Shown here: positions 17,519 to 21,537 of the stretch, piece after piece | Numbering within the stretch: position 1 is the stretch's first letter | How the letters are laid out: every line of letters begins with the position of its first letter | From: an uncultured Blastocatellia bacterium | GTDB lineage: Bacteria; Acidobacteriota; Blastocatellia; Chloracidobacteriales; Chloracidobacteriaceae | Reading direction: 5' to 3' | Assembly (NCBI GenBank): GCA_937934745.1 | Contig: CALGZC010000040.1 | Coordinates: 62,001 to 126,000 of the forward strand | Length of the DNA: 64,000 nucleotides | Notes under the pieces: generated by a model | The model's input: only the letters and a program-made list of their open reading frames with translations | What the model was told of the DNA's origin: nothing | Databases searched by the model: none | Program-made: the position numbers and the translations under genes

Positions 17519-19408
17519 ATGAAAGCAAAGCTTGAGGAAGTCGCCCAAACGTACGGCATTGAGAACTGGGGTGCCGGCTACTTCAGCATCAACAAAAAAG
17601 GTCACTTAGTTGTTCATCCAAGCGAGTACGACCGACGCGGCGCTGACGTTATGGAAATCCTTGAAGACCTGCAGCGCCGGCGTATCTCAGCACCTCTACT
17701 GCTGCGCTTTCCACAGATCCTCGTCAACCAAATGAAAAGGTTGACGGGTGCTTTTCGCAATGCCATCAAAGAATTCGGTTACAGTGGTCGGTACTATGGC
17801 GTGTTTCCGATGAAAGTCAATCCACGCCGTGAGGTGGTGGAGGAGTTCCTGCGCGCCGGACGGCGATATGACTTTGGGATCGAAGTTGGCAGTAAACCAG
17901 AACTATACGCCGCGCTGGCCCATGAGCAATCGCCTGACTCCGTCATGATTTGCAACGGTTTCAAGGACGAAAGCTACATCCGTCTGGCATTGCTTGGAAC
18001 TGAGCTTGGCAAAAATGTCGTCATCGTGATTGAAAAGATCGGCGAGCTGGAACTGGTGATTCGGCTGGCACAGGAGATCGGTATTCGTCCGCTGCTCGGC
18101 ATTCGCGTCAAACTGTACTCAAAAGGGAGCGGACGCTGGGAAAAATCAGGTGGTGAATCGGCAAAGTTCGGGCTGACAACGAGTGAAATTCTCGAGGTCA
18201 TCCGCGTCCTTCGGGAGCATGAAATGGTGGATGCACTCCGGTTGCTCCATTTCCACATTGGTTCGCAAATTACAAACATCAAGCGAGTTAAAAACGCCAT
18301 CAAGGAAGCTGCGCGGGTCTATGCCAAAATTCGGGCAATGAAGATCAACGTGGATTACTTGGATGTCGGCGGCGGACTCGGTGTTGACTATGATGGGAGC
18401 AAAACCAGCTCGGAATCGTCGGCCAACTATACCGTGCAAGAGTTTGCCAACGACGTTGTGTACACCATCAAGAGCGTTTGCGAGGACGAAGATGTTCCCG
18501 AACCGCACATCATCACGGAGTCGGGCCGTATGCTGACGTCTTACCATGCTGTTCTGGTGGCAAACATCCGCGCCGAGATTGAGACGGTTGTTGGTGAATA
18601 TGAAGCTGTCAAAGTGGATGAAGACGACCCACAGGTCATCGTCGAACTCAAGGATTTGTGTTTGGGTATCAACTCAAAGAATTACGTGGAATACTACCAC
18701 GATGCTCTAGAGCACAAGGATGAAATGTACACACTGTTCAACCTTGGCCTAATTTCACTAGAAGACCGCGCCAAAGGTGAGATTCTGTTTTGGGAAGTCT
18801 GTGAACGGACGGCCAAATATGCACAGAATGACAAGAGCATGATTGAGGAGTATGAAGAGTTGCGTCAGATGTTAGCGGCAAAATATCTATGCAACTTTTC
18901 GATTTTTCGCTCTTTGCCTGACAGTTGGGCAATTGACCAACTTTTCCCCATTATGCCGCTTCACAAGTTGGACAAGACCCCAACCGAACTCGCGACGCTG
19001 GTGGACATTACCTGCGATTCAGACGGCGTGATTGATAAGTTTGTGGACCTAAAGGACATCAAAGAGACACTTGAACTCCATCCCTTCAAGGGGGAGCCGT
19101 ACTTCCTTGGTATTTTCCTGGTCGGCGCGTATCAGGAAGTCATGGGCAGCGGTCACAACCTGTTTGGCCCGCTCCACGAAGCCCACATTATCATTGAGGA
19201 CGAAGGGTATCTGATTACCAAAGTCGTGCCTGGTGGGACGTTGGGTGAGGCGGTGGCAACCGCCCGGTATGAACAGGCGGCGCTTCAGGATGGCTTTGGC
19301 GAACTGGCTGCCGAGCAAGTCAAGCGCGGCCGCCTGTCGGCCGAACGGGCGAATGAGTTGTGCCGCCAGTATGAAAGCTATGTTTCCTGCTATACCTACT
19401 TGAGCTAA
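17519..19408 (+). CDS. speA: biosynthetic arginine decarboxylase
   Basis: PLP-dependent fold-III enzyme converting arginine to agmatine, the first step of polyamine synthesis from arginine. The 629-residue length is typical. The PLP lysine lies in YGVFPMKVNPR, the glycine-rich phosphate-binding segment is YLDVGGGLGVDYDGS, and the second active-site segment VDITCDSDG near residue 500 contains the catalytic cysteine. The long frame is open upstream to 16922 through the tRNA region, but ATG 17519 is preceded by AAGGAG with 4-nt spacing and begins the family homology. The next gene, 80 nt downstream, is a deoxyhypusine-synthase-like protein, suggesting a polyamine operon. No agmatinase is nearby. 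Confidence 0.95.
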   Translation: MKAKLEEVAQTYGIENWGAGYFSINKKGHLVVHPSEYDRRGADVMEILEDLQRRRISAPLLLRFPQILVNQMKRLTGAFRNAIKEFGYSGRYYGVFPMKVNPRREVVEEFLRAGRRYDFGIEVGSKPELYAALAHEQSPDSVMICNGFKDESYIRLALLGTELGKNVVIVIEKIGELELVIRLAQEIGIRPLLGIRVKLYSKGSGRWEKSGGESAKFGLTTSEILEVIRVLREHEMVDALRLLHFHIGSQITNIKRVKNAIKEAARVYAKIRAMKINVDYLDVGGGLGVDYDGSKTSSESSANYTVQEFANDVVYTIKSVCEDEDVPEPHIITESGRMLTSYHAVLVANIRAEIETVVGEYEAVKVDEDDPQVIVELKDLCLGINSKNYVEYYHDALEHKDEMYTLFNLGLISLEDRAKGEILFWEVCERTAKYAQNDKSMIEEYEELRQMLAAKYLCNFSIFRSLPDSWAIDQLFPIMPLHKLDKTPTELATLVDITCDSDGVIDKFVDLKDIKETLELHPFKGEPYFLGIFLVGAYQEVMGSGHNLFGPLHEAHIIIEDEGYLITKVVPGGTLGEAVATARYEQAALQDGFGELAAEQVKRGRLSAERANELCRQYESYVSCYTYLS

Positions 19409-19488: not shown

Positions 19489-20538
19489 ATGAGCAGAAAA
19501 GCGAAAGCGTCGCCTTATTTGAAGCGACCAACCGATCCCATTGAGATTGATCGTGACCGCAGCGTAGCCGGACTGCTGGCCAAATTTGAGGCGACTTCTT
19601 TTCAGGCCCGCAACCTCGCCATCGCCCATAATATTTGGCTCAACATGCTCGACGACACCTGCACCATCGTGCTTGGGTTGAGCGGGCCGCTCATCCCGGC
19701 CGGCATGCGGCGTTTGATTGCCTGGCTGATTCGGAATCGCTACGTAGACGTTGTCGTCACAGACGGTTTGACGGTGTTTCACGACATTCACGAATCACTG
19801 GGACGGCAACACTACCAAGGCTCACCGTTGACGGCGGCCAGTGAACTCCAGGCCCACCGAATCGCACGTTTGTACGACACACTCCTGAGTGAAGAAGAAG
19901 TCCAGGAAGCGGACGAATGGCTGCGCAGCTTCGTCAATATGCAGGATATGAGCCGTCCCTATGCGACCCGCGAGTTCCTCAACTTGCTAGGTCATGAACT
20001 ATCCGAAATCGCCAACGAGGACGGCGTGTTGACGGCGGCGTACAAAGCACGCATCCCGGTGTTTTGTCCCGGTGTGACGACTTCGCCGCTTGTGCGTGGC
20101 ATTGCAGCCGGCCGCATTGACCGAAGATCGTTGTTTTTGTTTGATGTTATTCAGGACGTGGTAGAAATGGCGCACATTTTGGTTGGGTCGACTAACGTCG
20201 GCGCGCTGTACTTTGGCTCCAGTCTTTGCAGCGATTTTGTGTGCCAGGCGCAGGCAACGGGCACGGTGGTCAATGCACGGTTGCGTCCGTTGAAGTATGT
20301 CGTCAAAGTCACGCTCGACGGATTGCTGAACGGCGGTACGCTGTTGCATCCGGTTGAGGACGCTGACAACTGGAGTCGCGCCGCGAAGGAACTCCGGCTT
20401 GTGACGGCGTACTGTGATCCGACCATTGCGCTACCCATGCTGGTGACGGCGCTAACGCAGAGTGCCACGCGCCAGATCAAGTCCCGGCGCAAGCCGACCT
20501 TCACACTCGGCCGCGATCTCGTCATGAGCGCCGCATAG
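19489..20538 (+). CDS. deoxyhypusine-synthase-like protein (polyamine aminobutyl transferase family)
   Basis: 349-residue NAD-binding protein of the deoxyhypusine synthase family, seen in VLGLSGPLIPAGMR, DVVVTDGLTVFHDIHESLG and the Rossmann-type FCPGVTTSPLVRG segment. Bacteria lack the eIF5A substrate of true DHS; bacterial relatives make homospermidine or guanidino-polyamine analogues instead. The C-terminal active-site region reads WSRAAKELRLV...TIALP. Ungapped alignment to the eukaryotic WGK motif places arginine at the catalytic lysine, although the nearby AAK lysine could replace it with a 3-residue shift. It lies directly after speA, so agmatine or a product of it is a likely substrate. 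ATG 19489 starts after GAGAGG. Confidence 0.82.
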   Translation: MSRKAKASPYLKRPTDPIEIDRDRSVAGLLAKFEATSFQARNLAIAHNIWLNMLDDTCTIVLGLSGPLIPAGMRRLIAWLIRNRYVDVVVTDGLTVFHDIHESLGRQHYQGSPLTAASELQAHRIARLYDTLLSEEEVQEADEWLRSFVNMQDMSRPYATREFLNLLGHELSEIANEDGVLTAAYKARIPVFCPGVTTSPLVRGIAAGRIDRRSLFLFDVIQDVVEMAHILVGSTNVGALYFGSSLCSDFVCQAQATGTVVNARLRPLKYVVKVTLDGLLNGGTLLHPVEDADNWSRAAKELRLVTAYCDPTIALPMLVTALTQSATRQIKSRRKPTFTLGRDLVMSAA

Positions 20539-20644
20539 GCGACGCCCGCAGCGTTAGGGCCGACGGTGCGGTGTTTGCCGGGTCATGCCGGTAGCAAAAA
20601 ACCAGCCGCACCGATGGCGACGTCCCAGGTCCTTTTATCGGGGT

Positions 20645-21034
20645 ATGAATAAGCGTTTTTACGAGGTTATGGTTGAGACGCAGTTTTGTGCTGCGCACGC
20701 ATTGCGCCGGTACCGCGGTCAGGGAGAAGCTGTTCACGGCCACAACTGGCGGATTCAAGTGTTTGTACGCGGTGAGAAACTCGATGAAAACCATATTCTG
20801 ATTGACTTCCGAGCCGTGCGCGAAGCGACGGAAGCGATTATGCAGTACCTCGACCACAAGCACCTCAATGAGCTGCCCCCCTTCGACGGCGAACTCAACC
20901 CTTCGACGGAAAACATAGCAGCCTTTGTCTTTCACCAAGTTGCCGCCCGTATCAACAACGACCACTGTCAGGTCACGCTGGTGCGAGCCTGGGAAACACC
21001 GGCCACCATGGCCGCCTACGGCCTGGCAGGTTAA
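20645..21034 (+). CDS. 6-pyruvoyltetrahydropterin synthase family protein, PTPS-III type
   Basis: 129-residue COG0720 enzyme acting on 7,8-dihydroneopterin triphosphate. Zinc histidines are in FCAAHALRRY and VHGHNW, and the second catalytic part is LDHKHLN with PSTENIA. The QueD/PTPS catalytic cysteine (C-x3-HGH) is absent; the sequence reads GEAVHGH, the E-x2-HGH motif reported for PTPS-III. That subgroup makes 6-hydroxymethyl-dihydropterin and can replace FolB in folate synthesis. This suggests folate rather than queuosine as the pathway. The frame is open to 20585, but the fold starts at ATG 20645. rimI follows 2 nt later. Confidence 0.87.
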   Translation: MNKRFYEVMVETQFCAAHALRRYRGQGEAVHGHNWRIQVFVRGEKLDENHILIDFRAVREATEAIMQYLDHKHLNELPPFDGELNPSTENIAAFVFHQVAARINNDHCQVTLVRAWETPATMAAYGLAG

Positions 21035-21036
21035 CG

Positions 21037-21537
21037 GTGACGACTGTCCCGGATGTACTGCCGCTGACGGTGTGGGACGCGCAGGCCTGTTGGGAGCTGG
21101 ATCGCCGCTGCTTCGCCGCCTATGAGACGTACGATTTGGCCACCTTTCGCCTGTTGCTCAGCTCGCCGGACTCTGTTTCGTACAAAGCCCTCGATGCCCG
21201 GCGGCAAATGGTTGGGTTTCTCATCGGCTTGGTTGACCGCCTGCTGACGCCTGGCCGTGGGCGCGGACAGCTCATCGGCAGCGGGCATATTCTTGCCGTT
21301 GGTGTTGCCCCAGAAGCGCGCCGGCAGGGGCATGCGCGCCGCCTGCTGGGCGTAGCGGAACAGGGCTTTCGGCGGCGCGGGATCACCATGGTGCACCTTG
21401 AAGTCCACGCTTCAAACAGCGCTGCCTGCCGCTTGTACACCACAGCAGGCTACTCGGTCACGCAACGTTTACCCGCGTACTACACCGATGGCGATGATGC
21501 CCTCAAGATGGTCAAGTCACTCGTGATCAATAGCTAA
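21037..21537 (+). CDS. rimI: GNAT acetyltransferase, RimI-like
   Basis: 166-residue GNAT-fold N-acetyltransferase similar to RimI, which acetylates the N-terminal alanine of ribosomal protein S18. The acetyl-CoA pyrophosphate loop is VAPEARRQGHARRLL, followed by VHLEVHASNSAACRLYTTAGY and ending in YYTDGDDALKM, the typical RimI C-terminal pattern. It has a GTG start directly after the pterin gene. There is a 21-nt 3' overlap with the convergent aroDE gene. Other GNAT substrates are possible. Confidence 0.82.
   Translation: MTTVPDVLPLTVWDAQACWELDRRCFAAYETYDLATFRLLLSSPDSVSYKALDARRQMVGFLIGLVDRLLTPGRGRGQLIGSGHILAVGVAPEARRQGHARRLLGVAEQGFRRRGITMVHLEVHASNSAACRLYTTAGYSVTQRLPAYYTDGDDALKMVKSLVINS

Follow-up and report, generated by a model that had tools for sequence, protein, structure and literature searches.

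Textbooks present deoxyhypusine synthase (DHS) as an enzyme that works through a covalent imine, and bacteria are not known to have eIF5A. What does a DHS-family protein do in Chloracidobacterium, a photosynthetic acidobacterium, when it is encoded directly behind an arginine decarboxylase gene and carries an arginine at the position of the imine-forming lysine? We addressed this question for one such protein, P0001, encoded in a window of 64,000 nucleotides (the whole stretch of DNA that was analysed) from a Chloracidobacterium genome (G000; 3.29 Mb, 99.9% completeness). Among public records, the window is closest to MAGs of the same genus, at 89-90% identity.

A DHS-fold protein encoded behind speA

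The gene pair lies at the following positions of the window.

17522 to 19408, + strand: speA, the upstream member of the pair, for biosynthetic arginine decarboxylase (TIGR01273, 724 bits, and NF003763, 829 bits, both above cut-off)
19489 to 20538, + strand: P0001, a type A protein of the DS family and candidate DHS-fold pseudoenzyme (PF01916, fold, dN/dS)

The second open reading frame is intact, encodes 349 amino acids, and starts after a gap of 80 bp from the end of speA at position 19408. P0001 scored 208 bits against PF01916 (DS; E = 2.7e-61, cut-off 27) and thus belongs to this superfamily, which bears out the initial annotation of a DHS-family protein directly behind speA. Its top NCBIfam model was NF002006 (PRK00805, "deoxyhypusine synthase"), with 259 bits for a cut-off of 434. 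The same model ranked first for every type A protein tested and none reached its cut-off, the scores being 316 bits in the sister genus and 379 bits in family f6. P0001 also scored below cut-off against the homospermidine biosynthesis protein model NF001980 (147 bits, cut-off 450) and against NF002699 (166 bits, cut-off 500). The AlphaFold2 model of P0001 (pLDDT 87.6) has the DHS fold and matched human and Pyrococcus DHS with a Z score of about 32 (rmsd 2.2 over 297 residues); the regulatory subunit of trypanosomatid DHS (6dft_B) was matched with a Z score of 29.6.

Downstream of P0001, positions 20585 to 21537 encode a QueD-like 6-carboxytetrahydropterin synthase, which scored just below the TIGR03367 cut-off, and a GNAT acetyltransferase; unlike in several relatives, no agmatinase gene is found there. 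A contig titled Actinomycetota bacterium (L004; scaffold name WN_Acidobacteria) carries speA and a fragment of a type A protein with 80% identity to P0001, and its title is probably a mislabelling. Plasmid records gave just distant DHS matches.

Schiff-base lysine and NAD site

Residues that published work on human DHS singles out, together with the surrounding motifs, were mapped onto the alignment of relatives. The positions concerned in P0001 are listed below.

19759 to 19773, + strand: TDGLT, eroded NAD motif (TTAGG in human DHS, TGAN in other type A proteins; from the alignment)
20080 to 20082, + strand: codon of Thr198, equivalent to human Asp238 (Asp in types B and C and in most other type A proteins; from the alignment)
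20215 to 20223, + strand: GSS, eroded GGG motif (human G282-G284; from the alignment)
20323 to 20379, + strand: catalytic-loop region, residues 279-297 (model confidence below 50)
20377 to 20379, + strand: codon of Arg297, equivalent to the Schiff-base lysine Lys329 of human DHS (ungapped alignments; Arg throughout the genus)
20386 to 20388, + strand: codon of Lys300, at +3, proposed in the initial annotation as a replacement lysine (K/R also in Lys-bearing relatives)

From the tryptophan of WGK to the conserved aspartate, P0001 aligned without gaps to DHS from Pyrococcus, from another archaeon and from human, so that the arginine suspected at the Schiff-base position is indeed there. A MAFFT alignment of 82 relatives placed Arg at the K329 position in all seven Chloracidobacterium genomes, three of which are assembled in just two contigs each, and Arg297 is therefore not an artefact of sequencing or metagenome assembly. 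Human K329A almost lost spermidine dehydrogenation (PMC10042821) and human K329R was unable to hypusinate eIF5A (PMC8707118). A clear lysine in close relatives had been named beforehand as grounds for abandoning the initial proposal. Such a lysine does occur in the sister genera represented by G051 and G063 (65% identical), as WTK and WNK, but Chloracidobacterium has lost it.

It had also been suggested that Lys300, in the motif AAK, takes over from the missing residue. Position +3 is K or R in 26 of the 32 Lys-bearing type A proteins, as it is in all 26 that lack the lysine; the basic residue is thus a background feature, present regardless of the catalytic lysine, and we rejected this substitution. 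We likewise rejected the poorly predicted catalytic loop as a mark of a pseudoenzyme, since the loop of a Lys-bearing control (L050) was predicted with equally low confidence.

The changes extend well beyond the lysine. Compared with human DHS, P0001 keeps the equivalents of W327 and D342 but is changed at K329, H288, D238, D243, K287, N292 and D316 and in the TAGG and GGG motifs. Chloracidobacterium type A proteins carry the substitutions T131D, G133L, G134T, D238T, D243R, K287S and H288D; across the genus, G283 and G284 have become Ser (with one Thr, at G283), the S317/G318 pair is lost, and W327 and D342 are retained. Ser248 and Asp249 of P0001, which follow GSS, correspond to human K287 and H288. 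The changes at H288, D243, D316 and E137 say little by themselves, because most bacterial relatives differ from human DHS at these positions. More can be learnt from T131, D238, GG283-284, K287, S317-G318 and K329: all are kept in type B, all except K287 in type C, and nearly all in Lys-bearing type A proteins outside families f1 and f4. In place of the NAD-site signature (TAGG or TGAN, GGG, and D238), the P0001 sequence has TDGLT, GSS and T198. Judged from the alignment, most of the NAD-site signature has thus been lost from Chloracidobacterium type A. Since the imine-forming lysine is gone as well, these proteins probably no longer perform the DHS reaction, and they may no longer bind NAD.

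Recurrent lysine change and selection in type A

DS proteins of the class Blastocatellia fall into three types, A, B and C, and genomes usually hold type A plus either B or C. Like P0001, type B and the SpeY proteins covered by NF001980 belong to the DS family; the one type B member tested, from a related genome, passed this model with 567 bits (cut-off 450), whereas P0001 and the type C protein of the window's genome both scored below its cut-off. That type C paralogue, P0002 (L006:1444-2427, equivalent to G000:C56:58913-59896), carries WGK and is encoded away from P0001, so that one genome holds both a Lys-bearing and a Lys-less paralogue. Type C, with WGK, is 74-94% identical over several Blastocatellia families and forms a well-conserved but unassigned DS subfamily; the two members tested passed no NCBIfam DS model, NF001980 included, with a top score of 107 bits. 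We found type C in all seven Chloracidobacterium genomes searched, with the lysine in all four sequences read. P0001 and P0002 did not match each other by phmmer.

The lysine is absent from 26 of 58 type A proteins (23 with R and one each with G, A and Q). The second paralogues, types B and C, which are not linked to speA, retain it in every one of the 24 sequences; the difference has a Fisher p of 1.6e-5 when ancestry is ignored. Parsimony on a quick type A tree, built with the lysine column left out and with SH-aLRT support only, required at least eight changes between K and not-K over the 58 proteins; it cannot separate loss from regain, and family f7 and genus g183 both mix K and R, with Lys and Arg alternating between close relatives. 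The NAD site followed its own course. In f3, f7 and f81 the lysine is lost (some f7 members keep it) and the NAD signature is retained; in f4 the lysine is mostly kept, and GG283-284, D238 and K287 are lost in most members; in Chloracidobacterium both lysine and signature are lost. On this pattern of residues, the active-site parts of type A erode independently of one another.

Repeated wearing away of the active site, at different points from lineage to lineage, is what a redundant, decaying paralogue heading for loss would show, and G267, from the same order, holds type C only. Selection speaks otherwise. Pairwise dN/dS (Nei-Gojobori) of type A within Chloracidobacterium was 0.03-0.08. By the same method and in the same genus, type C gave 0.02-0.045 and speA 0.012-0.017; all these values are rough because many synonymous distances are near saturation. 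P0001 is under strong purifying selection. The gene is intact in every Chloracidobacterium genome, and residues specific to and invariant in type A are kept throughout, those in alignment A1 including R74, E102, H108, Y158, R161, C193 and R333. We therefore regard decay as very improbable.

The Lys-less proteins of f3, f7 and f81 raise another possibility, namely that type A couples small amines (agmatine, or agmatine and putrescine) with NAD by direct transimination, so that the lysine relay would be dispensable and free to drift to R, Q, G or A. Retention of the NAD signature in these three families suits a redox-active enzyme better than a pseudoenzyme, and the Lys/Arg alternation in f7 and g183 fits as well. 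The chemistry is reasonable, since bacterial homospermidine synthase (BvHSS), an unrelated enzyme, has no active-site lysine and homospermidine chemistry is thus possible without one (PMC4725965), a point that also counts against a pseudoenzyme. However, K329A cost the human enzyme nearly all its spermidine dehydrogenation (PMC10042821). Chloracidobacterium has also lost T131, D238, GG283-284 and K287, and f3, f7 and f81 fit amine coupling better than this genus does.

Agmatine metabolism and the proposed role of type A

Type A lies directly behind speA in nearly every Blastocatellia genome read outside genus g183, in families f1, f3, f4, f5, f6, f7, f81 and f82. In other classes of the phylum it does not adjoin speA but adjoins an agmatinase gene, and in several families the three genes stand together.

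Order speA - type A - agmatinase: loci L059, L060, L062, L063, L065, L071, L072, L073, L131-L133 and L135

Because of the class-wide speA linkage and the agmatinase adjacency, an agmatine-related role is the best contextual guess for type A. AguA was found in none of the 14 genomes with an adjacent agmatinase and in 24 of the 32 without one (ancestry ignored), and this mutual exclusion suggests that both serve the conversion of agmatine to putrescine. AguA was also raw-associated with the state of the lysine (20 of 26 Lys-less and 10 of 32 Lys-bearing type A proteins); phylogenetically independent pairs did not bear AguA out as a driver of lysine loss.

All seven Chloracidobacterium genomes carry AguA. 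In the window's genome an AguB-like gene lies near it, both genes being best matches yet below the NCBIfam cut-offs. That genome has no agmatinase, its sole arginase-family protein being an arginase, and three Chloracidobacterium genomes (G000, G312 and G123) had no match to SpeD (AdoMet decarboxylase, PF02675) or SpeE (spermidine synthase, PF01564). Given AguA, AguB and a type C paralogue that keeps its lysine, and no SpeD, SpeE or agmatinase, the simplest and likelier triamine route in Chloracidobacterium would run from arginine through agmatine and putrescine to homospermidine, formed by type C.

In Thermus, the CdmS pathway leads from agmatine through caldomycin to homospermidine (PMC10981699). 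CdmS is, like P0001, a bacterial DS protein in an agmatine context, and the order speA - type A - agmatinase, like the adjacency to agmatinase in other classes, matches the logic of that pathway and favours amine coupling by type A. CdmS nevertheless keeps its lysine (Lys299) (PMC10981699), whereas P0001 has Arg and falls short of NF002699. A caldomycin step for type A in Chloracidobacterium is weakened by the absence of any agmatinase, and the exclusion between agmatinase and AguA points to putrescine formation instead of the processing of an agmatine dimer. On balance, we consider amine coupling by type A a minority possibility. Of the proposal in the initial annotation that the enzyme acts on agmatine, the agmatine-related role holds up through the speA and agmatinase linkage, and active coupling loses ground to the NAD-site loss and the missing agmatinase. 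Its idea of a lineage-specific polyamine found no support: besides the NAD-site loss, an agmatine dimer would find no agmatinase, and the WGK paralogue together with AguA and AguB offers a complete homospermidine route.

The fixed order of speA and type A would also follow if type A acted on SpeA, as an antizyme-like regulator that binds SpeA, or senses agmatine or a polyamine, and adjusts SpeA activity. Direct linkage throughout the class and purifying selection on a protein whose chemistry seems lost both agree with this. On the other hand, genus g183 (5 readable genomes; L124-L126, L105-L109) keeps type A, with Arg in three and Lys in two, and has no speA in the four genomes checked; and speA and type A are not neighbours in other classes of the phylum. 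We hold regulation of SpeA to be unlikely, somewhat more so than amine coupling. The g183 genomes also yielded no type B or C paralogue, and thus neither a DHS nor a SpeA partner can be an obligatory requirement of type A in general. SpeD/SpeE-family genes are present in both g183 genomes checked for them, and the type A locus lies near an apparent glnA (recognised by eye), as in f4 relatives.

The reading that we favour, with confidence no greater than even, is that P0001 is a conserved DHS-fold pseudoenzyme with a non-catalytic role in agmatine/polyamine metabolism, prozyme-like in its most specific form. Its ancestor, already encoded behind speA, would have been a DS paralogue with both the lysine and the NAD site, and purifying selection would maintain type A for the non-catalytic role after loss of the reaction. 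As a prozyme, P0001 would pair with the type C protein P0002 and stabilise or regulate it, and P0002 would convert the putrescine that SpeA, AguA and AguB deliver into homospermidine. The precedent is the trypanosomatid DHSp, which is without the lysine and activates DHSc about 3000-fold (PMC3663545); Lys-less DHS paralogues also occur in Entamoeba. As in trypanosomatids, a Lys-less paralogue accompanies a Lys-bearing one in the genome of P0001. P0001 differs from DHSp in being bacterial and speA-linked; its candidate partner is very divergent, and some type A relatives have no partner at all. Partnership with type C is further argued against by the occurrence of type A with B in some genomes and with C in others, and by the failure of phmmer to relate P0001 to P0002.

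For the family as a whole, the chances seem to us evenly divided that the speA-linked DHS-fold proteins of Blastocatellia have repeatedly abandoned the covalent DHS mechanism, as a bacterial counterpart of the prozyme or as agmatine couplers free of a Schiff-base lysine. Our literature search, limited to open-licence papers, found no report of a Lys-less bacterial DHS, and dead DHS paralogues seem, in the literature found, to be confined to a few protists. If true, either outcome would be, to our knowledge, a mechanism undescribed for bacteria, and it bears on whether pseudoenzyme control of polyamine synthesis also arose there. Type A proteins provide a natural series (lysine and NAD site, NAD site only, lysine only, neither) for testing the purpose of the lysine with two small-amine substrates. 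In Chloracidobacterium, where the searches found no spermidine synthase, homospermidine is predicted to be the main triamine.
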